Shown: positions 2,315-21,775 of the stretch, piece by piece
Numbering within the stretch: position 1 is the stretch's first letter
Layout of the letters: each line of letters opens with the position of its first letter
Origin: Flavobacterium nackdongense
GTDB lineage: Bacteria > Bacteroidota > Bacteroidia > Flavobacteriales > Flavobacteriaceae
NCBI RefSeq assembly: GCF_004355225.1
Contig: NZ_CP037933.1
Span: forward strand, 372,001-436,000
Direction of reading: 5' to 3'
DNA: 64,000 nt
Position numbers and translations under genes: made by a program
The notes under the pieces: model-generated
Database searches by the model: none
Seen by the model: only the letters and a program-made list of their open reading frames with translations
Told to the model about the DNA's origin: nothing

Positions 2315-3664
2315 ATGAAATCTTTGAAAATTTTTTTGATTGAAGACGATCCCTTTTTCGGAGAAGCTTTAAAATATCACTTGAAACTTAATCCCGATTT
2401 TGACATTCATCTTTTCAAAACCGGAAAAGAGTGCATTAGCAATTTGTATCAAAAACCCGATATTATCTGTTTAGATTTTGGATTACCTGATATAACTGGG
2501 GACAAATTGTTGAAAAGGATTCAAGAAACTAATGATAAAATCCCAATTATCATCATTAGCGGCCAAGAAGAAATTGAAGTCGCGGTCAATTTTTTGAAAT
2601 CGGGTGCTGCCGATTATATCATCAAAAACGAACACACCAAGGACATTCTTTGGAATTCTATAAATAAAATTAGAGAGAATCTTGATCTTGTTAGTGAAGT
2701 CGAAGATTTAAAGGAGCAACTAGAACAAAAGTTTAGTTTCGAAAAAACAATTATTGGCCAAAGTGACGCCATAAAAAATGTTTTCAACAAAATAAACAAA
2801 TCCATCAAAACCAATATCAATGTTTCAATTACCGGCGAAACTGGAACAGGTAAAGAAGTCGTGGCCAAAGCTATTCATTATAATTCTGAAAGAAAAAACA
2901 AACCCTTTATAGCCATCAATATGGCGGCAATTCCAAAAGATTTGATGGAAAGTGATTTTTTCGGACACGAAATAGGCGCCTTTACTGGTGCCAACACTCG
3001 AAGCATAGGAAAATTTGAACAAGCCAACGGAGGGACTATATTCCTAGATGAAATTGCTGAATTGGATTTGAATCTTCAAAGCAAATTACTACGAGTCTTG
3101 CAAGAACGTGAGGTGGTTCGCTTGGGTGGAAACACCAAGATAAAATTTGATGCTCGTTTGATAATAGCCACCCACAAAGATTTAGCTCAAGAAGTAAAAA
3201 AAGGATCTTTCAGAGAAGATTTATACTATAGAATTATTGGTTTGCCCATAGAGTTGCCTCCATTACGAGAACGAGGAAATGACACTTTATTACTGGCTAA
3301 ATATTTTATTGATCTATTTGTAAAAGACAATAAAATGAAATCCATTATTTTGTCAAAAGAAGCTAAAGATAAATTGTTAAAGTACCATTTCCCTGGAAAC
3401 ATTCGCGAATTGAAATCGGTAATTGATTTAGCTTGCGTGATGTGCGAGAATGGTGAAATTTTGTCAGATGACTTGACTTTTAACAGTATCAATAGCACCG
3501 ATTTTTTCCTATCTGAAGAAAAAACACTAAAAGAATACACGGCTGAAATCATTTTGCATTATCTAAAGAAAAATAGAAATGATGTGTTAAAAACAGCTAA
3601 AAAACTGGATATTGGCAAATCGACCATTTATAATTTAATTCAGTCTTCTGAGAAACTCAAATAA
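2315..3664 (+). CDS. Sigma-54-dependent response regulator (NtrC family)
   Basis: Three-domain enhancer-binding protein. The N-terminal receiver (about 1-120) has the acidic pair EDD and the phospho-acceptor Asp54 in CLDFGLPD. The central AAA+ domain has Walker A GETGTGKE (174-181), the sigma-54 contact loop GAFTGA (221-226) and GGTIFLDEI as Walker B. The C-terminus has a Fis-type helix-turn-helix (KTAKKLDIGKSTIYNLI). The ATG at 2315 (MKSLKIF) is preferred to an in-frame TTG two codons earlier. The FIST gene follows after 5 bases and the hybrid kinase after that, so the three are probably one operon. I infer that it activates the downstream exopolysaccharide promoters through the palindromes at 9031, 16155 and 21645. 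That link is not proven. Confidence 0.95.
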   Translation: MKSLKIFLIEDDPFFGEALKYHLKLNPDFDIHLFKTGKECISNLYQKPDIICLDFGLPDITGDKLLKRIQETNDKIPIIIISGQEEIEVAVNFLKSGAADYIIKNEHTKDILWNSINKIRENLDLVSEVEDLKEQLEQKFSFEKTIIGQSDAIKNVFNKINKSIKTNINVSITGETGTGKEVVAKAIHYNSERKNKPFIAINMAAIPKDLMESDFFGHEIGAFTGANTRSIGKFEQANGGTIFLDEIAELDLNLQSKLLRVLQEREVVRLGGNTKIKFDARLIIATHKDLAQEVKKGSFREDLYYRIIGLPIELPPLRERGNDTLLLAKYFIDLFVKDNKMKSIILSKEAKDKLLKYHFPGNIRELKSVIDLACVMCENGEILSDDLTFNSINSTDFFLSEEKTLKEYTAEIILHYLKKNRNDVLKTAKKLDIGKSTIYNLIQSSEKLK

Positions 3665-3669
3665 ATCTG

Positions 3670-4812
3670 ATGAAAATAGCGTCTACCTTATATAAAGATA
3701 ATTCGTTCATTATGGAAAAGAACGAAGAAAGTATAAATTTTAATGAAGTTCAGTTGGTCCTTGGCTTTGGTTCGAGTACTTTGGTTTCCCAAGAAAAATC
3801 CTTTCAAGATATAAAAAATAGATTTCCCAATGCCGAAATCGCTTTGTGCTCCTCGGCTGGCGAGATTTATGAGACCGAAGTGATAGACGATACTATTTCA
3901 TTGGTAGCAATCCAGTTCCAATCCACCAAAATAAAAACTTCGGAAATAAGTATTGATGATTTCGATTCAAGTTATGAAGCAGGCAAAATTTTGATTAATA
4001 ATTTGCCTCAAAAAGACTTAAAATTAGTTTTCGTTCTTTCAGACGGTGGCCAAGTGAATGGCAGCGAACTGGTCAAAGGCATGAATTTTTCCAAAAGTCA
4101 AAATGTACTTATCACTGGAGGACTAGCCGGTGATGGAGCAAATTTCGAAAAAACCTTTGTAGGAGTAAATCAAGTACCTCAAACGGGCAAAATCATTGCA
4201 ATAGGTTTTTACGGAGAAAATCTGTTGGTTTCGCACGGCTCTTTTGGTGGTTGGGAATCTTTTGGATTAGAAAGAACTGTTACCAAAGCAGAAAGTAATA
4301 TACTATTTGAAATAGATAATAAAAATGCTCTGGCTTTATACAAAACGTATTTAGGTAAATTTGCCGATGAATTGCCTAGTTCGGCACTGCTTTTTCCGCT
4401 GTCGGTAAAGTTAGATGACGATAATAGACCCATCGTTCGAACCATACTATCTATTGACAATGAAAATCAATCCATAACTTTTGCTGGCGATATTCCCAAG
4501 GGAAGTAAAATCAGGTTTATGAAAGCCAATATTGACCGATTAATAGACGCTGCAAGTGATGCAGCCAATTCCTGTTTGGAAATGGAGAAAAGCAAACCCA
4601 AATTGGCTATTTTGATCAGCTGTGTGGGTAGAAAATTAATTATGCCCAACAGGATCGAAGAGGAAATCGAAGCTATATCCGAAATATTTGGAACTGGCAC
4701 AATGCTGTCAGGTTTTTATTCCTATGGCGAAATTTCTCCCTTAAACCCATTGGCAAATTGTGAACTTCAAAACCAAACAATGACCATAACCGGCATTAAT
4801 GAAATTATTTAA
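3670..4812 (+). CDS. FIST domain sensory protein
   Basis: A 380-aa soluble protein with the layout of a FIST_N plus FIST_C protein. The N-terminal half contains VLGFGSSTLV, ALCSSAGEIY and VLITGGLAGDGANF. The C-terminal half contains LAILISCVGRKLIM and, near its end, LSGFYSYGEISP, typical of FIST_C. The family is thought to bind small ligands, possibly amino acids, and to feed signals to kinases or cyclases. There is no signal peptide or membrane segment, so it should act in the cytoplasm. It lies between the sigma-54 regulator (5-base gap) and the hybrid kinase (2-base gap), suggesting it supplies sensory input to that kinase; this is inferred from context. Confidence 0.9.
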   Translation: MKIASTLYKDNSFIMEKNEESINFNEVQLVLGFGSSTLVSQEKSFQDIKNRFPNAEIALCSSAGEIYETEVIDDTISLVAIQFQSTKIKTSEISIDDFDSSYEAGKILINNLPQKDLKLVFVLSDGGQVNGSELVKGMNFSKSQNVLITGGLAGDGANFEKTFVGVNQVPQTGKIIAIGFYGENLLVSHGSFGGWESFGLERTVTKAESNILFEIDNKNALALYKTYLGKFADELPSSALLFPLSVKLDDDNRPIVRTILSIDNENQSITFAGDIPKGSKIRFMKANIDRLIDAASDAANSCLEMEKSKPKLAILISCVGRKLIMPNRIEEEIEAISEIFGTGTMLSGFYSYGEISPLNPLANCELQNQTMTITGINEII

Positions 4813-4814
4813 TT

Positions 4815-7800
4815 ATGGATTTTCATAAGCTTTTGCAAAAACAATTAAAAAAGTATTTAACTGCTGACTGTCTTGAAAACCCATCTTTTCAAGCTTTTAT
4901 TCAGTCGGTTAATGATTCATATTTAGCTTTTGAAAGAGACAAAGGGATAATGGATCACACTTTTAAAGAAAGTGAAAAAGAATATCACGAAATTAATAAC
5001 CAATTAATAAAAGAAATTGAACTTAAACAATTAGCGGCCAATAATTTATATAATAGTATCAATAAGGAGGATTTAGACTATGATATAAAGTACGACCACA
5101 ACGACGATTTGTTGTTTGTCTCAGAATATCTTCGTGCGCAAATTAACAAAAGAAAGCAAACCGAGGAGCATCTCCATCAAAACAATGAATTGCTAAAAAC
5201 ACTACTGTCTAATTTTCAATCGGGAATCATGGCAGAAGACGAAAATCGCAAAATGATTTTTGCAAATCAAATGTATTGTGATATGCGCAATATAAAACTC
5301 CCACCCGAGGAATTGGTCGGGATAGATTGCTCGGATTTAATACACGAGTCTAAATTAATATTTAAAAGCCCACAACATTTTATTGACAAGACCAATAAAA
5401 CCCTAAAAGACCGAAAACTTATTTTAGGCGAACTGTTAGAAACAGCAGACCATCATTTTGTAGAACGCGATTATATACCCATATTTATTGACAATGAATA
5501 CAAAGGTCATCTTTGGAAATACACTGATGTCACTACAAAAATTCAAACTCTAGAATTACTCAAACAAAGCGAAGAACACAATCGATTGATAATGAATTCT
5601 TCTTTGAATTCAATTGTTACCATTGATATTTCTAAAAAAATAACATTTTGGAATCGACAAGCCGAAGCAATATTCGGCTGGAAAAAAGAGGAAGTAATAG
5701 GAAAAAAAATGGTCGATTTATTAATTCCCTCGCAATACCGAGCGATGTGGAACACTATCATAGACCAATATCAAAAAGACAAAGGGGATTTTTATCTTAA
5801 TAAACAACTAGAATTAATTTTAATTAACAAAGCAGGAAATGAATTCTATGGAGAAGCTTCTATAATACCTATAAAACAAAATGGAGAAATCTTCTTTTGT
5901 GCCTTTATTCAAGATATTTCTAAAAGAAAACAGGCTGAAAAGAATCTTTTGCAAACAGTTGAATTATTAAAAACATTATTAGCCAACCTACAATCGGGAG
6001 TTTTAGTAGAGGACGAGCATCGAAAAATATTGTTTACCAACCAGCTATTCTGCGATGTTTTTTCTATTCCCGTGCCTCCCGAGAAAATGATAGGGATTGA
6101 CTGCACCAATTCAGCAGAACAATCCAAAGAATTATTCAAAGATGCAGCATCGTTTAGCCCAAGAATTAATCAAATTTTAAATCAAAAAAAAGCTGTTACC
6201 GACGAACTTCTCGAAACGATAGACAATAGATTTTTGGCCAGAGATTATGTTCCTATATTTATAAATGAAGAGTATAGAGGCCATCTGTGGAAATACACCG
6301 ATGTTACCCAAAGGATTCAAAATCAAAAGCTGTTGGAGCAAAGTGAAGAACGTACCCAAATCATAATGAATTCGGCACTAAATGCAATAATTACAGTCGA
6401 TTTCAAAGGAGAAATTACCTTTTGGAACGATCAAGCCGAAATTGTTTTTGGATGGAAGGAAGAGGAAGTATTGGGTAAAATATTTACTGAATTTATGATT
6501 CCTGAACGGAACAAAGAACTCTGGAACAATTCTATTTACCAATATTTAAGCGAAGGCGACAATGAGTTTTTGAATAAGCAAGTTGAACTTTTTGGTGTGA
6601 AAAAATCTGGCGACGAATTCCTTGCAGAAATAACAATAACGCCAGTAACCCAAAATGATGAAACCTTTTTCTGCGCGTTTCTCCAAGATATTTCCAAGCG
6701 AAAAGAAGCCGAAAACCAACTTTTTCAAAGTGAAAACAGAAGCAAATTGATTATGAATGCTTCACTTAACGCCATAATTACCATTGATATAAACGGAATA
6801 ATTACTTTCTGGAACCGTCAGGCGGAAATTATTTTCGGATATAAAACAGAAGAAGTTTTAGGAAAAGACTTGTCCGAAACCATAATTCCTCACCAACACA
6901 TCGAGGCGCATAGAAAAGGAATGAAACATTATCTCGAAACTGGAGATGGGCCTGTTTTAAACAAACCTTTAAATCTTACTGCACTGAATAGAAATAGTGT
7001 AGAATTTCCAATCGAAATGTCGATTATCCCCATTAATGAAAGCGATCAAGTGTTTTTCTGCGCCTTTATTCAAGATGTTTCCGAAAAAATGGAAGCTGAA
7101 AATATTCGCAAAATTCAAGAAGAAAAATACCAAAATGTAATCGCACACATGAACCTTGGCCTGCTTGAAGTCGATAATAATGAAGTTATTAAATATGTAA
7201 ATCAAAGCTTTGCAACCATTTCGGGCTACGAAATTAACGAACTTATCGGTAAAAATCCATCCGAATTATTTGTTTTTGGTGATAATTTTGACACCATCAA
7301 AAATAAAAAAGAACTCCGAAAACAAGGCACCTCAGATATTTATCAGCTCCCAATCAAAAACAAAAGAGGAGAATTAAAATGGTGGGCCATCAGCGGGGCG
7401 CCCAACTATGATAATAAAGGAAATGTGATCGGTTCTATAGGAATTCATTTAGATATAACCGAACAAAAACAATTGGAGATTGATCTTGAAAAAGAAAAAA
7501 CAAAGGCATTAGAGTCATCCAAAGCTAAAGAAATATTTTTGGCCAATATGAGCCACGAAATACGAACACCTCTCAATGCAATTATTGGTTTTTTAAGGGA
7601 GTTAGAAAAACAAGAACTAAGCGAAATTCAAAAAAAATACATCAATAACAGCTCCATTGCATCGAAACATTTATTGGCCATTATAAATAATATTTTGGAC
7701 ATTTCAAAAATCGAAGCTGGAGAAATGTCGTTAGAATCCGAAAATTTTATTTTTGAAAAATCCATTACCAATGTTGCAACGGTAATGCACCCCATGTTGT

Positions 7801-9014
7801 TGCAAAAAGGGCTTGATCTCAGTATTTCAATATCAAAAAAAATAGAAAAGGTATTAATTGGCGATGCTTTGAGACTCCAACAAATTTTATTTAACCTTGT
7901 AGGAAATTCAATTAAGTTCACCAGTAAAGGAAGTATTGCTATTCATTGTGATCTGGTTGAGGATAAAACACTTTCGCAAAAAATAAAAATTTCAATATCC
8001 GATACCGGAATTGGAATGGAAAGTAGCTTTATCGATAATGTTTTCAATAAATTTTCTCAAGAAGATAAAGCCATCACTCGAAAATATGGGGGAACAGGCT
8101 TAGGATTGTCGATCACTAAGGAATTAGTTAATTTAATGGGAGGGAAAATTGAAATTGAAAGCGAAAAAAACAGCGGCACAACAATTCGTATTTACCTCAA
8201 ATATCCCAAAGGTGACATCCTAAATGTTGAAGAACGAGATAGCGATAAACCTCAAACTCGATTAGATAATATTTCAATTCTATTGGTCGAAGACAATTAT
8301 TTAAACCGAATGGTTGCGCAAAATTCTTTACAATATTTTAACTGTAATGTAACAGAGGCCGAAAATGGGCTTGAAGCCATAGCCATTTTGAAAGAAAGAG
8401 AATTTGATATTATTCTAATGGATATTCAAATGCCCGAAATGGGAGGTATTGAAGCCACCGAAATTATTCGAAAAGAACTCAAACGCACCACCCCCATAGT
8501 TGCACTCACTGCCAATGCATTCAAAACCGAAATTGATAAATGTAAAATGGCAGGCATGGATGACTACGTGACTAAACCATTTGATGAAGACATTTTAATT
8601 GAAACCATTGCAAAACATACCATCAATAAGAAAGCAGCTATTCCAAAAGCAGTAATACCAGAAGTTTTTTCAACGGATAAACTTTATAATTTAACTTCAC
8701 TCCATACCATGAGCAGGGGAAACAAAGAGTTCATAGCCAAAATGATTTCGATTTTTATAGAACAAACTACAAGTGCTGTGGATAAGGCGACAATAGCAAT
8801 GAGTCAAGATGATTTTCACGAAGTAAGCCGTTTGATTCATAAAATTAAACCTAGCGTCGAGAGCTTGGGTATTTTATCCATTAGTTCAGAAATGAAACTT
8901 CTTGAAAAAATAGCTAAAGAAGCAAAGAATAAAAAACAAATTGCAGCTCTCTTTAGTAGGACCAAAGAGGTATTGGAAAAGGCTGTTCTTCAACTTAAAG
9001 ACGAGAAATTTTAA
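4815..9014 (+). CDS. Hybrid histidine kinase with six PAS domains, receiver and HPt
   Basis: A 1399-aa protein without transmembrane segments. Six PAS-type units begin near residues 125, 255, 383, 512, 642 and 771. Units 1 and 3 share a start (LLKTLLxNxQSG) and units 2, 4 and 5 share another (LIMNxSLNxIxTID), pointing to internal duplication. The kinase core has phospho-accepting His914 in MSHEIRTPLNAI, an N box (LFNLVGNSIKF) and a G box (YGGTGLGLSI). A receiver with Asp1203 (ILMDIQMPEMGG) and a C-terminal HPt domain with His1342 (LIHKIKPS) complete a His-Asp-His relay. The relay suggests transfer to a separate receiver: the NtrC-type regulator encoded two genes upstream or the lone receiver encoded next. 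The signal is unknown. Confidence 0.95.
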   Translation: MDFHKLLQKQLKKYLTADCLENPSFQAFIQSVNDSYLAFERDKGIMDHTFKESEKEYHEINNQLIKEIELKQLAANNLYNSINKEDLDYDIKYDHNDDLLFVSEYLRAQINKRKQTEEHLHQNNELLKTLLSNFQSGIMAEDENRKMIFANQMYCDMRNIKLPPEELVGIDCSDLIHESKLIFKSPQHFIDKTNKTLKDRKLILGELLETADHHFVERDYIPIFIDNEYKGHLWKYTDVTTKIQTLELLKQSEEHNRLIMNSSLNSIVTIDISKKITFWNRQAEAIFGWKKEEVIGKKMVDLLIPSQYRAMWNTIIDQYQKDKGDFYLNKQLELILINKAGNEFYGEASIIPIKQNGEIFFCAFIQDISKRKQAEKNLLQTVELLKTLLANLQSGVLVEDEHRKILFTNQLFCDVFSIPVPPEKMIGIDCTNSAEQSKELFKDAASFSPRINQILNQKKAVTDELLETIDNRFLARDYVPIFINEEYRGHLWKYTDVTQRIQNQKLLEQSEERTQIIMNSALNAIITVDFKGEITFWNDQAEIVFGWKEEEVLGKIFTEFMIPERNKELWNNSIYQYLSEGDNEFLNKQVELFGVKKSGDEFLAEITITPVTQNDETFFCAFLQDISKRKEAENQLFQSENRSKLIMNASLNAIITIDINGIITFWNRQAEIIFGYKTEEVLGKDLSETIIPHQHIEAHRKGMKHYLETGDGPVLNKPLNLTALNRNSVEFPIEMSIIPINESDQVFFCAFIQDVSEKMEAENIRKIQEEKYQNVIAHMNLGLLEVDNNEVIKYVNQSFATISGYEINELIGKNPSELFVFGDNFDTIKNKKELRKQGTSDIYQLPIKNKRGELKWWAISGAPNYDNKGNVIGSIGIHLDITEQKQLEIDLEKEKTKALESSKAKEIFLANMSHEIRTPLNAIIGFLRELEKQELSEIQKKYINNSSIASKHLLAIINNILDISKIEAGEMSLESENFIFEKSITNVATVMHPMLLQKGLDLSISISKKIEKVLIGDALRLQQILFNLVGNSIKFTSKGSIAIHCDLVEDKTLSQKIKISISDTGIGMESSFIDNVFNKFSQEDKAITRKYGGTGLGLSITKELVNLMGGKIEIESEKNSGTTIRIYLKYPKGDILNVEERDSDKPQTRLDNISILLVEDNYLNRMVAQNSLQYFNCNVTEAENGLEAIAILKEREFDIILMDIQMPEMGGIEATEIIRKELKRTTPIVALTANAFKTEIDKCKMAGMDDYVTKPFDEDILIETIAKHTINKKAAIPKAVIPEVFSTDKLYNLTSLHTMSRGNKEFIAKMISIFIEQTTSAVDKATIAMSQDDFHEVSRLIHKIKPSVESLGILSISSEMKLLEKIAKEAKNKKQIAALFSRTKEVLEKAVLQLKDEKF

Positions 9015-9030
9015 TATTGAATTTTTTTGT

Positions 9031-9058
9031 TTTGGAAATACTTTCCAAATTTTGGAAA
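9031..9058. promoter_or_regulatory. Putative activator-binding palindromes (site 1)
   Basis: Three half-sites overlap here: TTTGGAAA-TAC-TTTCCAAA (perfect, 9031-9049) and TTCCAAATTTTGGAA (9043-9057). The centre of the second is 62 bp upstream of the GG of the sigma-54-like promoter at 9110, a usual place for an enhancer. The same palindrome recurs at 16173 and 21664 and was not noticed elsewhere in the window. Binding by the sigma-54 activator encoded at 2315 is inferred. Confidence 0.7.
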
Positions 9059-9109
9059 AATATACAATCCTATTTTTTTTAATTGCTTGATAATAAATAC
9101 TTTAAATTT

Positions 9110-9126
9110 TTGGCTTGACTTTGGCA
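9110..9126 (+). promoter_or_regulatory. Sigma-54 promoter of exopolysaccharide unit 1
   Basis: TTGGCTTGACTTTGGCA contains the GG-N10-GC arrangement that defines -24/-12 promoters (GG at 9112-9113, GC at 9124-9125). Transcription would start near 9137, about 17 bases before the ATG at 9154. The palindromes at 9031-9058 lie upstream at enhancer distance. Of the three sites in the locus this one matches the sigma-54 consensus best. Confidence 0.7.
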
Positions 9127-9153
9127 TATCCATTTTTATAAAATATATTAATT

Positions 9154-9588
9154 ATGGAAAATCAAAATCAGTTCAAATTTTTTATCGTTGACGACGACAC
9201 TTTTTGCGCTAGCATGTATCAACATGATTTAAAAAACATGGGGTACAACGACATTACCTATTTCAGTAACGGAACAGATTGTTTAAGCAATCTAAACCAG
9301 AATCCTGACATCATTTTCTTAGATCACAATATGGAAGACATCACTGGATTTGAAGTTTTAAAAAAAATAAAACGATATAATCCGAATATTTATGTAGTGA
9401 TGGTTTCCGGTCAAGAAACGATAAAAACCGCAGTTGATGCATTGAAATACGGTGCTTTCGACTATATCGTCAAAGACAATAAAGTAAGTGATAAAATGGT
9501 ACTTATCATTGATAAAATTATCTTGGTTAAACAAGAATTAAGAAAATCGAATCCCAACTTTATCCAGCGTTTGCTGTTCTTTTTTTAA
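9154..9588 (+). CDS. Stand-alone response regulator receiver
   Basis: A 144-aa CheY-like protein: acidic triad start IVDDD, phospho-acceptor Asp in IIFLDHNMEDITG, and the conserved Lys in FDYIVKDN. It has no output domain and ends in a short basic/aromatic tail (FIQRLLFFF). The sequence resembles the receiver of the sigma-54 activator encoded at 2315; shared blocks include VSGQE/ISGQE and DYI(V/I)K. It is the first gene after the sigma-54-like promoter at 9110. I infer a phosphate shuttle or sink in the same relay, or feedback on its own promoter. A direct effect on the secretion proteins encoded downstream is also possible. Confidence 0.9.
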   Translation: MENQNQFKFFIVDDDTFCASMYQHDLKNMGYNDITYFSNGTDCLSNLNQNPDIIFLDHNMEDITGFEVLKKIKRYNPNIYVVMVSGQETIKTAVDALKYGAFDYIVKDNKVSDKMVLIIDKIILVKQELRKSNPNFIQRLLFFF

Positions 9589-9617
9589 TTTTTATATAGC
9601 CCCTAAAATATACTACA

Positions 9618-10346: not shown

Positions 10347-10358
10347 ATAAGTAACGAT

Positions 10359-13754: not shown

Positions 13755-14860
13755 TTCATATAGTTCTCGGAAAAGCCAATCCTGAAAGAATGAATGGCGT
13801 AAATAAAGTAGTCTTTCAATTGGTTACGAAACAGGTTCATTTTGGCAAAAAAGCCGCCGTTTGGGGCATAACTAACGATCAAGAAGATAATTATGGGGAA
13901 CGCAATTTTGAAACCCAATTGTTTTTGAAACAGCGCAATCCTTTTGCTATTTCTGAAGAACTAAAATTAGCTATTATCGATAAAAAAGACAAAGCTGTTT
14001 TTCACCTACACGGTGGTTGGATTCCCGTTTTTTATTCCTTGTCAAAATTGATGCATCAACACCAAATTAGTTTTGTTTTAACGCCTCACGGTGCTTACAA
14101 CACCATTGCAATGCAGCGTAGCTCTTGGATTAAGAAATTCTATTTCTCGCTTTTTGAGAAAAAATTACTCAGTAGAACTTCAAAAATTCATTGCATTGGC
14201 AAAAGTGAAGTGAATGGATTAAAGAAGATTTTCGATAACAAAAAAGCAATTTTATTGCCTTATGGATATGAAAATGATAAAACAATAACCATCGAAAATA
14301 CGGCTAATCCAAGTATCGTTTTTGGCTTTATTGGGCGATTGGATATTTATACCAAAGGTCTTGACACATTGCTAAAAGCATTTGCAAGTTTCAAAAAAAT
14401 CCAACCCGAAGCGCGGCTCTGGATCGTAGGGGACAGCAAGGAAAAAGTCATTTTAGAACAACAAATTAAATCAAAATCACTAGAGAAAAACATTATACTT
14501 TTGGGAAGTAAATATGCTGCCGAAAAAGAAGAAATACTTCAAAAAATAGATGTCTTTGTTCATCCCTCAAGAAACGAAGGACTACCATTATCGGTTATTG
14601 AAGCAGCTAGCTTCGGAAAACCTTGTATTGTTACCGATGCTACTAATATTGGTACGCAAATAGTCAATAGCAAGGCCGGTATTACGATTTATTCTCAGAG
14701 TAGTTCCCAACTTGATGACGCGATGCAAAAAATGTATTCGATTTGGGAAAATCCAGCGGCATTCAAAAAAATGCAAGAAAATGCAATCCAAATGGTAGAA
14801 CAAAATTACAATTGGAAAAAATTGATTGCACAGTTTAACACCGATTTATACACTATCTAA
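13745..14860 (+). CDS. Glycosyltransferase family 4
   Basis: A 371-aa GT-B fold enzyme. The donor-binding C-terminal half has FGFIGRLDIYTKGLDTLLKAF and the E-x7-E motif in SRNEGLPLSVIEAASFGKP, characteristic of retaining GT4 transferases. The N-terminal acceptor half contains FHLHGGWIP and TPHGAYN. It overlaps the flippase gene by 10 bases and its stop codon shares one base with the start of the polymerase gene, showing tight coupling. The sugar transferred cannot be told from sequence. Confidence 0.92.
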   Translation: MEIIHIVLGKANPERMNGVNKVVFQLVTKQVHFGKKAAVWGITNDQEDNYGERNFETQLFLKQRNPFAISEELKLAIIDKKDKAVFHLHGGWIPVFYSLSKLMHQHQISFVLTPHGAYNTIAMQRSSWIKKFYFSLFEKKLLSRTSKIHCIGKSEVNGLKKIFDNKKAILLPYGYENDKTITIENTANPSIVFGFIGRLDIYTKGLDTLLKAFASFKKIQPEARLWIVGDSKEKVILEQQIKSKSLEKNIILLGSKYAAEKEEILQKIDVFVHPSRNEGLPLSVIEAASFGKPCIVTDATNIGTQIVNSKAGITIYSQSSSQLDDAMQKMYSIWENPAAFKKMQENAIQMVEQNYNWKKLIAQFNTDLYTI

Positions 14861-16149
14861 TGAATTCAACGACGACTAATCACGATGCTTTTTTAAAAAA
14901 AATAGACAATTATCTGTTTATTATTTTACTATTGATGGTGGCCTGTTTTTTTACTTGGAGTGAAAATATCAACATCACACGAGCCATCAAAGTAGTGGGC
15001 AGATTGGGCTTGATGCTTTCTTCGATTGGTATTTATTTCAAAATTATTCGGTATGGCGCCGCCAATACCATGAGCTATAAAAACATATTTTCGCCTTTGT
15101 TTTACTTGGCTTATATGGGTTTGGGATTCATCTCATTTACCTGGAGCACGAATCCAGGATTCAGTATTTTGCAATGGTTTATGACATTTCAAAGTTTAGT
15201 TTTTGCCTATTTTTTTATCAAAAGCATCAAAGTTTTAGATAGTTTTTTTGAAGGTCACCACATCCGATTGTATCATTTATTGGGCAATTCGGTTTTTGTG
15301 CTGCAATTGGTATTTGTCGTTGGAATGTGGATTGATCCCGACACTTTTTTCCGGCTGACAAATGGGGGAGAAGAAGCCCGCTTGGGAGGCGTGATGATGA
15401 ACCCCAATGAACTCGGAATGCTTGCAGGAGTGGGCGTAGCTTGCCTAATTTTTGATTTATACAGAAAGCAAAACAAAATTTGGACCGTAATCAAAATCTT
15501 GGTTATTTTTTACGCCTTGTTTATGACGGGTTCCCGATCTTCCTTGATTGGTGTTTTGATAATTATCTTTTTCCATATTAACCAAACCAAAAAACAAGGT
15601 TTGAAAATGGCTATTATCGGTGGCGTTTTGTTGGTCATTCCGTTTGCTATAAACCAAATCATTCTCAAAGGTGGCGATAAAGAGCGAATGGAAGAAATAT
15701 TGACTTTGACCGGAAGATTGCCTTTTTGGCAAGCCCTGATCACCGAAGGATTGCCACGAGAACCCTTACTAGGTTTTGGATATATGCGAATAGATTACAA
15801 AGAATTTTTTCAAAGTGTGCATACCTATCCTGGTAAAATGACTCACAATACGTTTATGCAAGTGCTTATGAATTTGGGCTTTATCGGATTGTGTACCGCT
15901 ATTTTTCAAATGTTTTTTACTTTCCACGCCTTTTTCTCAGAAAACAAGGAAACCCGCTTAATGTTGATCGGAATCCTCATACCAGTTTTGATTAACTCGT
16001 TTACTGAATTTGGTATTTTTGGGGAAAGCAATTATGGAATTTTGTTCTATCAAATGATTATTTTCTCGGTTTCATTTAAGAATAATGCCCATTTAACATC
16101 GGTACAAAAACTACATTTAAGGAAAAGAAGACCAGAACTCTTGGTATAA
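14860..16149 (+). CDS. O-antigen ligase/polymerase-like membrane protein (Wzy-like)
   Basis: A 429-aa protein with about 10-12 membrane segments and the Wzy_C/O-antigen ligase signature: an Arg-containing loop EEARLGGVMMNPNELGMLAGV, a second Arg motif MTGSRSSLIGV, and a large periplasmic loop with HTYPGKMTHNTFMQVLMNLG. It should polymerise undecaprenyl-linked repeat units, or ligate the finished chain to an acceptor. With the Wzx-like and Wzc-like proteins it completes a Wzx/Wzy-type pathway. It is the last gene of the first exopolysaccharide unit; a 137-base gap with a predicted sigma-54 control region follows. Confidence 0.88.
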   Translation: MNSTTTNHDAFLKKIDNYLFIILLLMVACFFTWSENINITRAIKVVGRLGLMLSSIGIYFKIIRYGAANTMSYKNIFSPLFYLAYMGLGFISFTWSTNPGFSILQWFMTFQSLVFAYFFIKSIKVLDSFFEGHHIRLYHLLGNSVFVLQLVFVVGMWIDPDTFFRLTNGGEEARLGGVMMNPNELGMLAGVGVACLIFDLYRKQNKIWTVIKILVIFYALFMTGSRSSLIGVLIIIFFHINQTKKQGLKMAIIGGVLLVIPFAINQIILKGGDKERMEEILTLTGRLPFWQALITEGLPREPLLGFGYMRIDYKEFFQSVHTYPGKMTHNTFMQVLMNLGFIGLCTAIFQMFFTFHAFFSENKETRLMLIGILIPVLINSFTEFGIFGESNYGILFYQMIIFSVSFKNNAHLTSVQKLHLRKRRPELLV

Positions 16150-16154
16150 AACCG

Positions 16155-16187
16155 TTCCAAAATTTAGTATTATTCCAAAATTTGGAA
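16155..16187. promoter_or_regulatory. Putative activator-binding palindromes (site 2)
   Basis: A perfect palindrome TTCCAAAATTTGGAA (16173-16187) is preceded 18 bases upstream by a partial copy, TTCCAAAATTTAG (16155-16167). The palindrome centre is about 64 bp upstream of the GG of the -24-like element at 16241, the same geometry as at sites 1 and 3. Confidence 0.7.
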
Positions 16188-16240
16188 ATAATTTCAATCA
16201 AATAAAAATGTAACTACTTGATAATCAGTATAATTTAAAG

Positions 16241-16254
16241 TTTGGCACGATTCT
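16241..16254 (+). promoter_or_regulatory. Sigma-54-like promoter, unit 2 (weak -12)
   Basis: TTTGGCACG is an excellent -24 element. The -12 region (TTCTGTA) lacks the GC at the canonical spacing, so the promoter may be weak or strongly activator-dependent. A CTTGATAAT block 27 bp upstream of the GG (16217-16225) also occurs 26 bp upstream of the GG of the first promoter (9086-9094). The next ATG is at 16287. Confidence 0.5.
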
Positions 16255-16286
16255 GTAAATAGGTTACGAAAATAAAACCTTTTACA

Positions 16287-18668
16287 ATGGAAAATATATT
16301 CGCCAAACTAGGCTACTCGGTTTCTTCAACACGAAATAATACAACAGATATTGTTTTGGATATGCTTTTTATAAAAAATCCCGATGGTTCGCCAAGATGG
16401 ATTTGGAATGCCAATTGTGACACTCCTTTGTTTCTAAAATTCTATAACATTGGAAGTTCTAGAGCTTGGTGGTTTGCAACAGCAATAAAAATGGTCTTCA
16501 TTTTCAGATTACAAAAAATCGTCTTCAGTAAAAAATCAGTTTACGCCACAAAAAATGACCATACTATTTTAGATTCCAATACGGATTGGGCATTATTCAC
16601 AGGAACCATTGGTCCAAATAATAAAGCCATCCTTTACACAAATTTCTCTTTTTACAAAATTGCAACAACTCCAAGTGCGGTAGAATTAATCAACCGGGAA
16701 CACGCGATCTTAGCAAGAATAAACGGTTTTTATGATGGATTTATTAGTCCGAAATCTTTCAAAATTTCGTCTGAAATTATTCAATTATCGGATGTTTCAG
16801 AGAATGGAACAAGATCCAAATCCAGCACTTCAAGTCATTTGAATGCCTTACTTGCTATGCGTTCAATTGAATCGAAAACAGTAAAACTTGGCCAATGGAG
16901 CTTATTCAAAAATTTGAAAAATGAATTTAATAGCATTGATGATAGCCGAATTCCTTCTAATATGCTTCGAAAAATCAATACCCTGATTGAGAATATTTCT
17001 GAAAATGAAAAAGTGGATGTTACACTGTCACAAGGCGATTTTACCCAATGGAATATGTACATAAGAAATGGAAAAATCGCTTTGTACGACTGGGAATTGG
17101 CGAGTTTTGAAAAGCCAAAGGGATTCGACTATTTCCATTTTATCATCCAACAAGGCGTTTTGGTACATCATAAATCTTGGAAAACCATTTACAAGGATAT
17201 TATTGTGGAATCTGAAGGCGACTTCCTGGAACAACTCTTTAACAATGATTTAAATGAATTAAAGAATTATCTAAAATGGTATGTAATTACCAATTGCATT
17301 CATTATCTAAAACTATATTCAGAGCAGCCGCAATGGCACATACAAGTAGATTGGCTTTTGAAAGTTTGGAACGAAGCCTTGAACGAATTTATGTTGGAAG
17401 AGAAATCTGCGAGAGAATTGGTTATAATGGATCTGTTCGATTTGTTGCAAAATCAAGAGTACGCCGCATTAAAATTCAACCATGGATTTCCAGAAAAATT
17501 AAGCATTAATTCGGATATTGATTTGGTTGTCGATAAAAAAACAAACCAGTTGCTGGTTTCTTATCTAAAAAATCATGCCTTAGTTTCTAAAATTAAGGAA
17601 AACAAAAAATCATTTATGAATGCTATTCAAGTATTTCTTAATGATGGAACTTCATTATCATTGGATTTGATCTGGCAATTAAAGGTTAAAAACCTTGAAA
17701 TTCTGGATGCAAAGCAGATCATTGCTTCCAATATTGTAAACAAATATGGTGTAAAAAATGCCTCTTCCATCAATACTGCCCGATTTATCGCACTGTTTTA
17801 TACGCTAAACAATTCCGCAATTCCTAGTAAGTACTTGATTTATGAATTAGCCATTCAAAACTCGCAAGAATCCTTGGATTTAATCCTTCAAAATCATTTT
17901 GGAAACACTACAAATAAAAAGGAAAGCGTACTCAATTTCATAAATCAGAACCCGAAAAACAAAGGGATTTCAGTCCTTAAAAACACTATAAATTATTACA
18001 AAGACATTATGAGAAATAGCATTTTCAACAGAGGATTTATTATCACTTTCAGCGGAGTTGATGGTGCGGGAAAATCGACCGTAATTGAGAATATCGCTTT
18101 AAAAATCGAAAAACAACTCCGGAAACCCGTGGTGGTGCTACGGCACAGACCTTCTATTTTACCCATATTGAGTGTGTGGTCCAAAGGCAAAGAAAAAGCA
18201 CATCAGGATGTAATTGAAGGTTTGCCTAGACAAGGAAAAAACAAAAGTTCTTTGTCCTCGTTTATTCGCTTTACGTATTATTACTTTGATTATTTATTTG
18301 GGCAATTTGTGGTGTATTTCAAATACATCTTGAGAGGAAAAGTGGTAATTTATGATCGTTATTATTTTGATTTTATTAATGATAGCAAGAGAAGCAACAT
18401 TGTTTTGCCTAAAAAACTGACTTCTTTTTTCTATACATTCCTTTTGAAACCTGAATTTAATTTCTTCCTTTTTGCCGATGCCAACATCATTTTAAAAAGA
18501 AAAAAAGAACTAAGCAAAGCCACCATCGAAAAATTAACAGTGGATTATCATCGTCTATTTGCGTCGCTTCAATCCAAAAGTAATTCTTCTGTGTATCAGT
18601 CCATCAATAATATTCAACTTGAAGTAACCCTAAATAAAGTTTTGAAAACCATTTTACTTTTAAAATAA
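16287..18668 (+). CDS. Three-module protein: APH-like kinase, NTase-like, TMPK-like
   Basis: A 793-aa soluble protein; I know no named family for the whole. Module 1 (about 1-375) resembles choline/aminoglycoside kinases: catalytic loop QGDFTQWN (249-256, Asp251 and Asn256) and metal-binding Asp268 in YDWELASFE. Module 2 (about 390-540) resembles a minimal nucleotidyltransferase: SDIDLVVD (409-416) and a possible third acidic residue in LSLDLIW. Module 3 (about 575-793) resembles thymidylate kinase: P-loop FSGVDGAGKST (587-597) and DRYYFDF (690-696). Each keeps its main catalytic residues. It opens the second unit of the exopolysaccharide locus and shares one base with the acyltransferase gene. 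I infer a role in making or phosphorylating an activated sugar or glycerol-like precursor, or decorating the polymer. Confidence 0.8.
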   Translation: MENIFAKLGYSVSSTRNNTTDIVLDMLFIKNPDGSPRWIWNANCDTPLFLKFYNIGSSRAWWFATAIKMVFIFRLQKIVFSKKSVYATKNDHTILDSNTDWALFTGTIGPNNKAILYTNFSFYKIATTPSAVELINREHAILARINGFYDGFISPKSFKISSEIIQLSDVSENGTRSKSSTSSHLNALLAMRSIESKTVKLGQWSLFKNLKNEFNSIDDSRIPSNMLRKINTLIENISENEKVDVTLSQGDFTQWNMYIRNGKIALYDWELASFEKPKGFDYFHFIIQQGVLVHHKSWKTIYKDIIVESEGDFLEQLFNNDLNELKNYLKWYVITNCIHYLKLYSEQPQWHIQVDWLLKVWNEALNEFMLEEKSARELVIMDLFDLLQNQEYAALKFNHGFPEKLSINSDIDLVVDKKTNQLLVSYLKNHALVSKIKENKKSFMNAIQVFLNDGTSLSLDLIWQLKVKNLEILDAKQIIASNIVNKYGVKNASSINTARFIALFYTLNNSAIPSKYLIYELAIQNSQESLDLILQNHFGNTTNKKESVLNFINQNPKNKGISVLKNTINYYKDIMRNSIFNRGFIITFSGVDGAGKSTVIENIALKIEKQLRKPVVVLRHRPSILPILSVWSKGKEKAHQDVIEGLPRQGKNKSSLSSFIRFTYYYFDYLFGQFVVYFKYILRGKVVIYDRYYFDFINDSKRSNIVLPKKLTSFFYTFLLKPEFNFFLFADANIILKRKKELSKATIEKLTVDYHRLFASLQSKSNSSVYQSINNIQLEVTLNKVLKTILLLK

Positions 18669-19363
18669 TGAAGAAGCTAATTGTAAAAATTATCCAACTA
18701 CGAAATCCACATTTTGAATTAGATGACTCTCTGAATTTGGCTGCTTTATTTCAGTTTGTTTTTATTCAAATCTGTGGTTTGATTCGAGGATGTAAGGTTG
18801 TTTTTTGTTTTAGAAAACCAAAAGGAATGATATTGGGTAAAGGTGTTACGTTTTTTAATATTTCTAAAATCAATTGGGGAAAATTTCTCCGATTAGGCAA
18901 TCAAGTATATGTTTCCGCTTTGAGCAAAAATGGAATTCAGTTCGGTAATAATGTGAGTATTGGTGCCTTTAGCAGAGTGATCGTATCCACCTCAATCAAC
19001 AATATTGGTAATAAAATCGTGATTGGAAACAATGTAGGTATTGGCGAATTCGCTTATTTGGGTGGAGCTGGAGGGTTAGAAATTGGAGATGAATGCATCG
19101 CAGGCCAATATTTGAGTTGTCATCCTGAAAATCATAACTATGAAAATTTTGAAATCGCCATCAGGCATCAAGGTGTCACCAGAAAAGGAATCATCATTGG
19201 CAAAAATTGCTGGATTGGAAGCAAAGTTACTATCCTAGATGGTGTAACAATTGGCAATGGATGCATCATCGCAGCAGGAAGCGTGGTTACAAAATCATTT
19301 CCCGAGAACAGTATTATTGGGGGTGTTCCCGCTAAACTTTTAAAAAATAGAAACAATGACTAA
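18668..19363 (+). CDS. Left-handed beta-helix acyltransferase (CapG/WcaF type)
   Basis: A 231-aa protein with hexapeptide repeats from about residue 85 onward (IGAFSRVIV, IGNNVGIGEF, IGKNCWIGSKVTILDGV, IGNGCIIAAGSVV) and the closing IIGGVPAKLLKNR typical of maltose/galactoside-type O-acetyltransferases. A catalytic-type His lies in SCHPENHNY. It probably O-acetylates a sugar of the polymer. Its start codon overlaps the stop of the three-module gene and its end overlaps the next glycosyltransferase by 8 bases. Confidence 0.88.
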   Translation: MKKLIVKIIQLRNPHFELDDSLNLAALFQFVFIQICGLIRGCKVVFCFRKPKGMILGKGVTFFNISKINWGKFLRLGNQVYVSALSKNGIQFGNNVSIGAFSRVIVSTSINNIGNKIVIGNNVGIGEFAYLGGAGGLEIGDECIAGQYLSCHPENHNYENFEIAIRHQGVTRKGIIIGKNCWIGSKVTILDGVTIGNGCIIAAGSVVTKSFPENSIIGGVPAKLLKNRNND

Positions 19364-20582
19364 CAAAACTATTTTAGCAACTTGTTATGCTGTGAACCCT
19401 TATAAAGGTTCAGAAGATGCAATGGGTTGGAATTTTGTATATCAAATTGCACGGTTCAACAAAGTTTTTGCCGTAACCAGAGAAAATAACAAAACGGCCA
19501 TCGAAAAATATATGTTCGAAAATCCAGATTCAGTTTATGACAACATTATGTTTTTGTATTTTGATTTGCCGTATTGGATTCGTTTTTGGAAAAAAGGCGG
19601 GCGGGGAGCGATGTTGTATTATTATATGTGGCAAAGAGGAATCGTGAATTTTGTTCGAAAGCAAAACTTGAATTTTGATATTACTCACAACGTGAATTTT
19701 CATAACGATTGGACTCCTAGTTTTTTATGGAAGTTAAATAAACCAATGGTTTGGGGTCCTGTAGGCCATCATCCGCTGATTCCAAAACAGTATCTTAAAC
19801 CGTATTCTTCTAAATATTGGATTAAAGATCGGGCTACTTGGATGGTGAAAAATTATTTTTGGAACTGTTCCTTTTCCTTGAAAAATACAGCAAAAAATGC
19901 AGCACATATTTGGTGCATGAATTCGGGAGTTCCCTCAAAATTAAAACTAAAAGAAACCTCATTTTCTGTTTTACCATCTGTTGCTACTGAAGATTTTGCA
20001 GTTAATCCCAAAACTGAAAATATAATTTATAATGTTATCAGTGTTGGTCGTTTTGTTCCACTAAAAGGATTTGATTTGACACTACTTTCTTTTATAAAAT
20101 TTATTAAAACAGTACCCAGTTCACAAAGGAAAAACTGCAAACTTACGCTAGTAGGCTCCGGTCCTGAAAAAGAATACTATGACCAAATAATTTATGATAA
20201 TGAGGTGGAATCGTATGTAGAAATTATAGAATGGATTGACCGTAAAGATTTGATGAAAATCTACGAAAAATCCACGGTATTCTTATTTCCATCACACGAA
20301 GGTGCAGGAATGGTGGTCGCCGAAGCCTTGTCTTTTGGTTTGCCAGTAGTTTGTTTAGATAATGAAGGTCCCGGACAATACATTAATTCCAATTGTGGTA
20401 TTAAAATCCCCAAATCAGATTATAAATACACGATTAATCAATTGGGTGAGGCGCTCCTAAAACTATATGCTGACAGCAATTTTTTGCAGCAATTGAGCCT
20501 TGGAGCCCGGCAGCAATACGAAGAAAAGTTTACTTGGAATAGCCGCGGTGAACATTTACAAAATATTTATAACCAACTGTAA
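19356..20582 (+). CDS. Glycosyltransferase family 4
   Basis: A 408-aa GT4-type enzyme. The N-terminus (ATCYAVNPYKGSEDAMGW) has the acceptor-side glycine-rich loop common in exopolysaccharide transferases. The C-terminal half has VISVGRFVPLKGFDLTLLSF and the E-x7-E segment HEGAGMVVAEALSFGLPVV. It overlaps the acyltransferase gene by 8 bases and is 2 bases from the next transferase. Donor and linkage are unknown. Confidence 0.92.
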   Translation: MTNKTILATCYAVNPYKGSEDAMGWNFVYQIARFNKVFAVTRENNKTAIEKYMFENPDSVYDNIMFLYFDLPYWIRFWKKGGRGAMLYYYMWQRGIVNFVRKQNLNFDITHNVNFHNDWTPSFLWKLNKPMVWGPVGHHPLIPKQYLKPYSSKYWIKDRATWMVKNYFWNCSFSLKNTAKNAAHIWCMNSGVPSKLKLKETSFSVLPSVATEDFAVNPKTENIIYNVISVGRFVPLKGFDLTLLSFIKFIKTVPSSQRKNCKLTLVGSGPEKEYYDQIIYDNEVESYVEIIEWIDRKDLMKIYEKSTVFLFPSHEGAGMVVAEALSFGLPVVCLDNEGPGQYINSNCGIKIPKSDYKYTINQLGEALLKLYADSNFLQQLSLGARQQYEEKFTWNSRGEHLQNIYNQL

Positions 20583-20584
20583 TT

Positions 20585-21658
20585 ATGAGAGTTATAGCCA
20601 TACATTTATTGAACGATTATAGCGGTAGCCCGAAAGTTTTGATGCAATTACTTAAGGGATGGACAAAAAATAATATAGAAACCCATTTATATACTTGCGG
20701 CGGAAGAGAAGGTTTCTTGTCTGATATTCCTAAAGTTCACTATCATTTTTATCGGTATCGCTTTGTAGAAAACAAGTTTTTGAGATTACTGTTTTTATTT
20801 GCAAGCCAGTTTATTTTAGCAATTCAATTGTTATTTATTTTAGAAAAAGCCGATGTCGTATATGTCAACACTGTTTTGCCTTTTGGGGCTGGAATTATCG
20901 CGAAATTAAAAGGATGCAAAGTGATTTACCACATTCACGAGACTTCGATTAAGCCTAAAATATTGAAACATTTTCTTTTTGGGGTAGTAAAATGGACAGC
21001 GACAGAAGTTGTTTATGTTTCGAATTTTCTAGCGGAGCGAGAACCTTTAAACCTTAAAAAAAATGTACTTTACAATGTTCTCGAAGAAAGTTTTGTAGAA
21101 CGAGCTAGTATGCATTTGAATAAGGAAAAAAAAGAAAAAATCGTTCTGATGATTTGTTCTTTGAAAGCTTATAAAGGGGTAAACGAATTTTTGAAATTAG
21201 CTCAAATGAATCCAGAGTTCACTTTCAAACTGGTGACAAATGCTACTCAAACTGAAATTGAAAACTATTTCAAAGATGAAACTGTACCAACAAATTTAAT
21301 ATTATATCCAACCCAAACCAACACGCATCCGTTTTATCAGGAAGCGAGTGTTGTTTTGAATTTATCAGATACCAACCTCTGGGTCGAAACTTTTGGATTG
21401 ACCGTCCTTGAAGCGATGGCTTATGGTTTACCTACGATTGTTCCGCCAGTAGGTGGCGTTGTAGAACTGGTCGAAGAAAGGAAAAATGGTTTTTTAATGG
21501 ACAGCAAAAACATAAATCTTATTTCAGAAAAATTACAATTAATGCTTCAGAATCAAACCATTTACAATCAAATGAGTACATACGCATACGAAAAAAGTAA
21601 ATTCTTTAGCGAGGATTATTTCGAAAAGGAATCTTTTAGAATTCTTTCCAAAAATTGA
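20585..21658 (+). CDS. Glycosyltransferase family 4
   Basis: A 357-aa GT-B enzyme with the N-terminal loop IHLLNDYSGSPKVLMQL, an acceptor-side segment VIYHIHETS, and the donor site region WVETFGLTVLEAMAYGLPTIV, whose ETFGLTVLE carries the E-x7-E motif. It ends the second exopolysaccharide unit. Its last codons (from 21645) overlap the first half of the third putative activator-binding site, TTTCCAAAAATTGAAA. Confidence 0.9.
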   Translation: MRVIAIHLLNDYSGSPKVLMQLLKGWTKNNIETHLYTCGGREGFLSDIPKVHYHFYRYRFVENKFLRLLFLFASQFILAIQLLFILEKADVVYVNTVLPFGAGIIAKLKGCKVIYHIHETSIKPKILKHFLFGVVKWTATEVVYVSNFLAEREPLNLKKNVLYNVLEESFVERASMHLNKEKKEKIVLMICSLKAYKGVNEFLKLAQMNPEFTFKLVTNATQTEIENYFKDETVPTNLILYPTQTNTHPFYQEASVVLNLSDTNLWVETFGLTVLEAMAYGLPTIVPPVGGVVELVEERKNGFLMDSKNINLISEKLQLMLQNQTIYNQMSTYAYEKSKFFSEDYFEKESFRILSKN

Positions 21659-21678
21659 AAATATTCCAAATTTTGGAG
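21645..21678. promoter_or_regulatory. Putative activator-binding palindromes (site 3)
   Basis: A near-perfect palindrome TTCCAAATTTTGGAG (21664-21678) is preceded by an imperfect copy TTTCCAAAAATTGAAA (21645-21660) that overlaps the end of the upstream coding region. The paired arrangement repeats that of sites 1 and 2. The centre lies 63 bp upstream of the AG of the -24-like element at 21731. Confidence 0.65.
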
Positions 21679-21730
21679 ATTTACCAACAAATAGTTAAAA
21701 TTAAAATACTGACTTACAATACATTGACTT

Positions 21731-21750
21731 TTTAGCATTGTTTTTGGCAT
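21731..21750 (+). promoter_or_regulatory. Sigma-54-like promoter, unit 3 (imperfect)
   Basis: The segment TTTAGCATTG-TTTTTGGCAT resembles the promoter at 9110 but has AG in place of GG at -24 and one extra base before the GGC of the -12 box. Alternatively TTTTGGCAT itself could be a -24 element. The call rests mainly on its constant distance from the upstream palindrome. The next ATG is at 21776. Confidence 0.4.
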
Positions 21751-21775
21751 AGTCAATAAAAAATAAACAAATAAA

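Follow-up and report, generated by a model that had tools for sequence, protein, structure and literature searches.

How does a flavobacterium switch on an exopolysaccharide (EPS) locus that is divided into several transcription units? We addressed this question for Flavobacterium nackdongense, in a window of 64,000 nucleotides comprising bases 372001-436000 of the single-contig 4.217-Mb genome (NZ_CP037933.1). A preliminary description of this window had proposed that a sigma-54 activator encoded just upstream of the EPS locus binds three palindromes at the breaks between transcription units and switches the locus with sigma-54, and had suggested searching the genome and related flavobacteria for the palindrome. 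Our analysis supports this prediction, because site and activator co-occur within the genus, palindrome and spacing are conserved at most orthologous promoters, a G that was not selected for occupies position -13 of every aligned first promoter, the palindrome lies before the activator's own gene in some distant relatives, and a fourth, mobile promoter carries the same element. We estimate at roughly 0.83 the probability that a phosphorelay-fed sigma-54 activator drives the EPS locus together with a secreted protein of the type IX secretion system (T9SS) through a common site, a reading in which we infer binding, sigma-54 dependence, phosphate flow and DNA bending from sequence comparison.

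The three palindromes and their extra partial copies are indeed found at the breaks between transcription units (Table 1), the partial copies of sites 2 and 3 lying 18 bp upstream of the full ones and in register. The distances of 62, 64 and 63 bp between palindrome centre and -24 element were likewise reproduced (9050 to GG at 9112, 16180 to GG at 16244, and 21671 to AG at 21734), as was the full GG-N10-GC of the first promoter, at 9112-9125. A Bacteroidota -7 box (TAnnTTTG) was considered by eye at sites 1-3 and dropped. Scanning the whole genome showed that the palindrome is not common: the only two exact copies are both at the locus, and the nine places with at most one mismatch comprise the three reported sites, five places inside open reading frames (ORFs) and one intergenic place without the geometry. 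The pattern TTCCANNNNNTGGAA occurs at 17 places in the genome, namely sites 1 and 2, a fourth site, 13 places within ORFs or long open frames and, between genes, one place resembling another repeat. A different intergenic repeat, CTTCCAGCCTTT...AAAGGCTGGAAG (L323, genome position 2676479), lies near the generic pattern.

The earlier statement that no other palindromes occur holds within the window at zero or one mismatch, but a fourth site showing the full geometry is present 2.6 kb to the left of the first base of the window. There, the palindrome TTCCATTTTTTGGAA (genome 369401-369415; L329:11402-11416) is followed by TAAATCTTTGATT and TTGGCACGTGAATTGG, with a GG at 63 bp and a promoter of the form GG-N10-GG, which in the copy of the related genome G435 reads GG-N10-GC. 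The gene concerned encodes a 1542-aa protein, with its ATG at genome position 369519 (2482 bases left of the window) and its end at window position 2147; the T9SS sorting domain of the product scored over the cut-off with two models (37 versus 23 bits for TIGR04183, 36.6 versus 27 for PF18962), and PEP-CTERM gave no match in this protein at E 0.001. Among the relatives' stretches compared, homologs were found in G570 (78%), G435 (71%) and G407 (44%), with a partial one in G307 (36%), and they stand about 12 kb before the activator gene in G570, behind wecA in G435, and between kinase and receiver genes in G407. In F. nackdongense, G570 and G435 alike, the ATG is preceded at 99-103 bases by an exact palindrome, with the GG at exactly 63 bp, and the G407 homolog also has an exact palindrome upstream. 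The position of the T9SS-protein gene varies while its control element is retained, which provides independent support for the regulon.

Two further observations concern this protein. All four full-length homologs (genome 369401-374147; L303/L351, L350, L236) are placed differently, each with a palindrome upstream. The G307 composite (17392-24425; L083/L084) carries 7 extra kb between wzy and the 793-aa-protein gene, where a palindrome precedes the gene of a 2172-aa protein that looks secreted, and where the relative of the 1542-aa protein is encoded as well.

In the search of related flavobacteria, palindrome and -24 element at fixed spacing track the activator within the genus. A close activator relative (73-100% identity; the closest named one, at 93%, is from Flavobacterium omnivorum) is present in 26 of 398 same-genus genomes, and the activator was found at an identity of at least 47% in 7 of 397 family genomes, own genome included, a patchy distribution. 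The pattern TTCCANNNNNTGGAA-N{49,55}-TTTGGC occurs in 47 of the 398 genus genomes, 20 of the 26 carriers versus 27 of the 372 non-carriers (Fisher p 5.8e-16), the latter counted irrespective of ORF context; reassigning carrier G731, whose match is on another contig, gives 19 versus 28 (p 2e-14). Five carriers without the pattern (G452, G612, G635, G652 and G730) show variant forms at the right place. The narrow gap was used genus-wide because wide-gap patterns, run over 30 genomes, gave many coding-looking matches. A TTCCAGCAATTGGAAT-type match recurs in several non-carriers (L248, L253, L254, L259, L262, L265) and is probably coding. The exact 15-mer TTCCAAAWTTTGGAA was also tried as a family marker and rejected: it occurs in 36 of 397 family genomes and is absent from all six non-self ortholog genomes, so that it is too strict, the conserved part being TTCC-N7-GGAA with an AT core.

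The density of this part, TTCC-N7-GGAA, in the 250 bp upstream of the predicted target genes (70 in 25.0 kb) exceeds that elsewhere in the loci (41 in 1206 kb) by a factor of 82. Such local density, together with the co-occurrence across the genus, leaves a practically negligible probability that the sites arose as AT-rich palindromes by chance or represent terminator-like repeats, as might be argued from the lack of window enrichment at up to three mismatches (20 matches versus 16.2 expected) and from hairpins that stand between palindrome and promoter in some relatives.

The palindrome also occurs before the activator's own gene. Among 17 distant orthologs (at most 70% identity), an exact copy was present in 6 (0.03 expected) and a copy with at most one mismatch in 9 (0.70 expected from plain shuffles); this count covers the 26 of 46 orthologs, distant and closer, with enough upstream DNA. 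Four of the nine cases have a TAnnTTTG box at a distance of 15-25 bases from the palindrome centre, and there bound activator could repress its own gene. The orthologs L099, L100, L101 and L118 are distant ones (57-61%) from other Bacteroidota, and in the first three of these the palindrome adjoins the TAnnTTTG box. As the link between protein and DNA comes from comparing genomes, another local DNA-binding protein might bind the palindromes while the activator acts elsewhere; we consider this very unlikely, given that site and activator co-occur in the genus, that 6 of 17 distant relatives have the site in front of the activator gene, that a Pfam scan of the 16 genes of 51-24100 (profile matches reported at E 0.001) recognised no transcription factor besides the activator, and that the spacing is that of an enhancer.

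The preliminary description had placed a sigma-54 activator just upstream of the locus, and this gene product is indeed of NtrC type, with a Sigma54_activat match of 233.6 bits, a GAFTGA motif that is exact in 43 of 46 orthologs, and an N-terminal receiver with a phospho-Asp retained in 45 of 46 (Asn in G079). The NtrC and PrsR models align to it up to residues 428 and 446, respectively, and the GKSTIY of its C-terminal end recurs in 41 of 46 orthologs. A single rpoN gene and three full-length sigma-54 interaction domains are encoded in the genome.

We then compared the promoters at orthologous loci. At the receiver gene, which follows site 1, the palindrome is present in 32 of 32 loci (26 with no and 6 with one arm mismatch), and a GG stands at 62-65 bp in 29 of them, at 59 bp in G082 and nowhere in range in G407a and G307. 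By eye, the latter three show GG-N10-G[CT] further off and a half-site 20 bp nearer the promoter. At the 793-aa-protein gene, palindrome (no mismatch) and GG at 60-65 bp are both found in 21 of 21 loci (GGC in 20, GGT in one), a class from which G307 is missing as its alignment starts late, and in which loci without a matching gene start are not counted. The third promoter has the palindrome in 19 of 19 loci (14 with no and 5 with one mismatch). In the alignment of site 1, which holds 27 loci (without G082, G404, G405, G407a and G307), position -13 is G in 27 of 27 and position -12 is C or T in 23 of 27, neither of which was selected for.

Several observations weigh against the reading that one activator and sigma-54 serve all these sites, and the first concern the promoters themselves. 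A strict GG-N10-GC is found at site 1 and at none of sites 2, 3 and 4. The -24/-12 region of site 2 reads TGGCACGATTCTGTAA, with the GC absent, and its relatives have a TTTGGCACGATTTT-like -24 with a G at -13 in 0 of 20 aligned loci. Site 3 has AG instead of GG at 63 bp, and the GC of its TTTGGCATA (21747-21748) comes after 11 bases; the -12 boxes of both sites had been called weak, which is right for site 2, but at site 3 the weak box is the -24. Relatives of site 3 often have TTTGGCA, and their -24 is usually weak and of AGCA or AGTA type. Hence, sites 2 and 3 each have one weak box. The constancy of the GG distance is moreover partly built in, because a GG at about 63 bp was used in choosing the -24 within a narrow range, and no convincing receiver -24 stands at the expected distance in G404, G405, G407a, G307 and G082, the two Chryseobacterium loci (G404, G405) giving no clear match by eye either. 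It could therefore be that the activator binds the palindromes but that genuine sigma-54 promoters are limited to site 1 and perhaps site 4; sites 2 and 3 would then serve another holoenzyme, or would boost or loop, with operons 2 and 3 transcribed by read-through or from housekeeping promoters. The missing GC of site 2 and the AG-N11-GC of site 3 speak for this possibility, but the GG retained at site 2 in every locus speaks against it, and so does site 3, where 16 of 19 loci have their best -13 G at 73-78 bp from the palindrome centre, as at site 1; we regard the possibility as unlikely. At the -12 region of site 2 (window 16250-16259 and orthologs), six of 21 loci show TTTTCCAAA, an activator half-site in place of the GC.

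Other points on the same side concern the activator and its distribution. No Pfam helix-turn-helix family matched its C-terminus at E 0.001, and an exact GAFTGA is missing in G307, G079 and G803. None of the nine closer orthologs (above 70% identity) has the palindrome before its own gene. The shuffles behind the promoter alignment, own-gene and integration host factor (IHF) tests were plain, not dinucleotide-preserving. A sixth carrier without the pattern, G655 (= G399), has no receiver or EPS gene matched within 11 kb after the kinase gene. The two distant orthologs whose neighbours were identified with Pfam, L099 with and L106 without the palindrome, are not in EPS loci, one PMT-type transferase standing near the former. 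Because of these neighbourhoods and of the palindromes before distant activator genes, the activator-site pair looks older or wider than the EPS locus.

The cargo varies among relatives. The locus of F. nackdongense has the export, chain-length, polymerase and initiating-transferase genes of a Wzx/Wzy-type EPS locus, each of the four with a Pfam match over cut-off. When its 11 EPS genes were compared with the 32 receiver loci, 18 loci matched all of them, among which are that of Chryseobacterium potabilaquae and that of G307, which has an insertion; 7 matched some, partly due to stretch ends; and 7 (G398b, G405, G082, G635, G652, G803 and G612), over 14-29 kb rightward, matched none, another point against a dedicated EPS switch. 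Since these seven have the receiver without an EPS match, and no receiver matched in G655, EPS is not an obligate cargo. Comparison supports the proposal of a locus switched by the activator through the palindromes and sigma-54, with the corrections that the promoters are four rather than three and that EPS genes do not always follow. In G803, one of the seven, the activator is among those noted above without exact GAFTGA.

Between palindrome and -24 element, we scanned for the IHF consensus YAANNNNYTGATW or its reverse. Of 69 spacers, 20 contain an exact match (0.93 expected) and 47 a match with at most one mismatch (16.1 expected), the receiver class contributing 29 of its 32 loci (without G407a, G307 and G082); 40 of the 47 matches fall on one of two mirrored positions, some 30 or 18 bases upstream of the promoter. 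A separate spacer inverted repeat was considered and set aside, its mean best score being 5.74 versus 4.94 +/- 0.17 in plain shuffles its position-fixed part fitting IHF better, and the repeat being a terminator-like hairpin in several relatives. Enhancer, IHF-like site and promoter follow each other in the classical order of NtrC-type enhancers (nif and related), with which the sites share upstream dyads, an IHF-like site and a -24/-12 promoter; they differ in that the IHF-like element, whichever protein binds it, is here nearly symmetric in some loci (TAA-N4-YTGAWWWTCAR-N4-TTA, by eye). In the spacers of G401, G522, G570, G677, G529, G625 and G612, terminator-like hairpins were seen by eye between palindrome and promoter, so that terminator, enhancer and promoter are packed there in about 100 bp.

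Based on these data, we propose the following circuit. The FIST protein and the PAS-rich hybrid kinase, which has an Hpt domain of its own, would form a cytoplasmic sensor pair passing phosphate to the activator, and the activator would then bind tandem sites consisting of a full TTCC-N7-GGAA dyad and a partial one 18-20 bp further out. A bend at the IHF- or HU-like site would bring it to the sigma-54 polymerase at the -24/-12 element, about 63 bp downstream. Promoter 1 would thereby be opened for the receiver, wza, wzc, a possible flippase, a glycosyltransferase and wzy; promoter 2 for the 793-aa protein, an acyltransferase and two glycosyltransferases; promoter 3 for a glycosyltransferase and wecA; and promoter 4 for the upstream T9SS-secreted protein. 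With four promoters under one activator, EPS and a presumed matrix or surface protein would be made together, and the lone receiver, itself under the activator's control, may feed back on the phosphorelay or act on the EPS machine. The fourth target, the IHF-like element and the candidate activator-controlled receiver are additions to what had been noted before. Elements, spacing and conservation are features of the DNA itself; the receiver's action and the secreted protein's part in the circuit are our suggestions.

Within the genome, the lone receiver finds its best non-self match in the activator's receiver (43%, E 6e-25; next 4e-12). A relative of the activator's receiver that is predicted to be controlled by the same activator points to feedback, with the lone receiver as a phosphate sink, or else to an additional output at the post-translational level. 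Both modes occur in the control of Myxococcus EPS, where, in the accessible text of PMC12802240, DifD is a sink and EpsW activates the initiating enzyme. The system described here is alike in using single-domain receivers that set EPS output, whereas in that text no sigma-54 activator with a related receiver controls DifD or EpsW, and the initiating enzyme is of another type. A DifD-like receiver, acting mainly as a phosphate sink that exerts negative feedback on the relay, has a real but less than even chance: besides the kinship with the activator's receiver, its gene is the first behind site 1, and the phospho-Asp is present in 30 of 32 loci, including five of the seven without matching EPS genes, but an EpsW-like output would fit equally well. 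That the receiver instead activates EPS synthesis post-translationally, the relay both transcribing and turning on the machine, is doubtful. Consistent with it are the EpsW precedent (PMC12802240, accessible text), the receiver's place at the head of the export operon, and the fact that both loci with Tyr in place of the Asp, G635 and G652, lack matching EPS genes; against it, G398b, G405, G082, G803 and G612 retain the Asp though they lack these genes too, and the EpsW target is a large monotopic phosphoglycosyltransferase, while the initiating enzyme here resembles polytopic WecA.

The remaining features are given in Table 1. Terminator-like hairpins number 12 in the stretch versus 13.4 in shuffles, the one between the T9SS-protein and activator genes having the longest stem. 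Comparison of the FIST protein and of the 793-aa protein with the PDB was little informative.

Table 1. Predicted features of the EPS locus and its surroundings (window positions)
Feature	Position	Strand	Detail
Secreted protein of 1542 aa, C-terminal part	51..2147	+	FG-GAP repeats, UnbV/ASPIC, DUF7619, T9SS sorting tail
Intrinsic terminator-like hairpin	2171..2197	+	12 pairs, T7 tail; between T9SS-protein and activator genes; consensus scan only
Sigma-54 activator	2315..3664	+	Receiver, AAA+ with GAFTGA, C-terminal helix-turn-helix-like end with GKSTIY
FIST-domain sensor protein	3670..4812	+	0 membrane segments predicted
PAS-rich hybrid histidine kinase	4815..9014	+	1399 aa; receiver and C-terminal Hpt; 0 membrane segments predicted
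Site 1 distal half-site	9030..9037	+	TTTTGGAA
Site 1 palindrome	9043..9057	.	TTCCAAATTTTGGAA, 0 mismatches
Site 1 IHF-consensus-like element	9080..9092	-	TAATTGCTTGATA
Site 1 sigma-54-type promoter	9110..9127	+	TTGGCTTGACTTTGGCAT, GG-N10-GC
Free-standing receiver	9154..9588	+	
Polysaccharide export protein	9618..10346	+	Wza type
Chain-length protein	10359..12518	+	Wzz/Wzc type
Multi-span membrane protein	12519..13754	+	9 segments predicted, no Pfam match; possibly a flippase, judging from the segments
Glycosyltransferase	13745..14860	+	
Polymerase	14860..16149	+	Wzy/O-antigen-ligase type
Site 2 distal partial palindrome	16155..16169	.	2 mismatches
Site 2 palindrome	16173..16187	.	TTCCAAAATTTGGAA, 0 mismatches
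Site 2 IHF-consensus-like element	16211..16223	-	TAACTACTTGATA
Site 2 promoter-like element	16242..16259	+	TTGGCACGATTCTGTAAA, strong -24, no -12 GC
Protein of 793 aa	16287..18668	+	Thymidylate-kinase-like stretch near C-terminus
Hexapeptide acyltransferase	18668..19363	+	
Glycosyltransferase	19356..20582	+	
Glycosyltransferase	20585..21658	+	
Site 3 distal partial palindrome	21646..21660	.	2 mismatches
Site 3 palindrome	21664..21678	.	TTCCAAATTTTGGAG, 1 mismatch
Site 3 IHF-consensus-like element	21702..21714	-	TAAAATACTGACT, 1 mismatch
Site 3 promoter-like element	21732..21750	+	AG-N11-GC
Glycosyltransferase	21776..22987	+	DUF1972, Cps2T-like
Initiating phosphoglycosyltransferase	23024..24100	+	WecA-like

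The closest known design is that of PrsK/PrsR in Proteobacteria, for which the accessible text of Haft 2006 (PMC1569441) describes an NtrC-type regulator usually near EPS genes and PEP-CTERM genes preceded by motif 1, a spacer of 62.8 nt on average and a -24/-12 motif; an Aquincola PEP-CTERM gene is RpoN-dependent, according to the accessible part of PMC9850573. Common to both are the regulator near EPS genes, the succession of motif, spacer and -24/-12 element, sorted surface proteins as targets, and a motif profile that follows the regulator. PrsK/PrsR differs by a 17-nt motif ending in TTTACA, the membrane kinase PrsK, PEP-CTERM cargo and its proteobacterial hosts, whereas here the host belongs to Bacteroidota, the FIST protein and hybrid kinase are soluble, the cargo is T9SS-sorted, and the EPS operons themselves have sites. 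The activator scores 354.9 with the PrsR model (TIGR02915), below the cut-off of 502.6, the neighbouring kinase has no predicted membrane segment, and the site 4 product, T9SS-tailed, gave no PEP-CTERM match, so that the system is like PrsK/PrsR in design and not by membership. On the sensor side, in Vibrio cholerae the FIST protein VpsV, the soluble hybrid kinase VpsS, LuxU and LuxO form a pathway that affects a biofilm polysaccharide gene (PMC4398556, accessible text), and there too a FIST gene stands upstream of that of a membrane-free hybrid kinase feeding an NtrC-type regulator; here, in contrast, the Hpt is fused to the kinase, the regulator is in the same locus and the predicted targets are polysaccharide operons. 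The activator scores 331.6 with the LuxO model (NF041946), against a cut-off of 800. NosP-NahK, as far as the accessible sources describe it, also pairs a FIST-domain protein with a hybrid kinase, and the scores of the present proteins (63.2 versus 450 for NosP, NF041558; 158.4 versus 400 for NahK, NF041832) fall far below the NCBIfam cut-offs. In its accessible text, a 2025 sigma-54 survey (PMC12316311) lists chaperones, rpoN and others as Bacteroidota targets and names no EPS locus; that text, and those of another sigma-54 survey (PMC3162934) and of a flavobacterial start-site study (PMC9723704), likewise make no mention of this system. Among the literature matches listed, subscription papers being mostly outside the search, none dealt with this regulon or motif in Bacteroidota.

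Taken together, these results give slightly less than even odds to a transferable Bacteroidota sigma-54 cassette of FIST sensor, Hpt kinase, activator and activator-controlled receiver that ties a slime locus to a giant matrix protein exported by the T9SS and has a duplicated receiver domain for feedback, as a T9SS counterpart of EPS/PEP-CTERM coupling in which cargo and gene order vary while the enhancer-IHF-promoter element is retained. The roles of sigma-54 and its activators in Bacteroidota are little explored, and the present locus offers a circuit open to testing, made up of one activator, its candidate DNA site and its predicted promoters; it occurs in many species, and the named strains F. 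succinicans DD5b, Flavobacterium sp. ALJ2 and Chryseobacterium potabilaquae are among those that have all of its genes. The suggested co-ordering of EPS and T9SS-exported proteins would resemble that of the EPS-associated PEP-CTERM proteins of Proteobacteria, and matrix proteins may therefore be searched for by their promoter.

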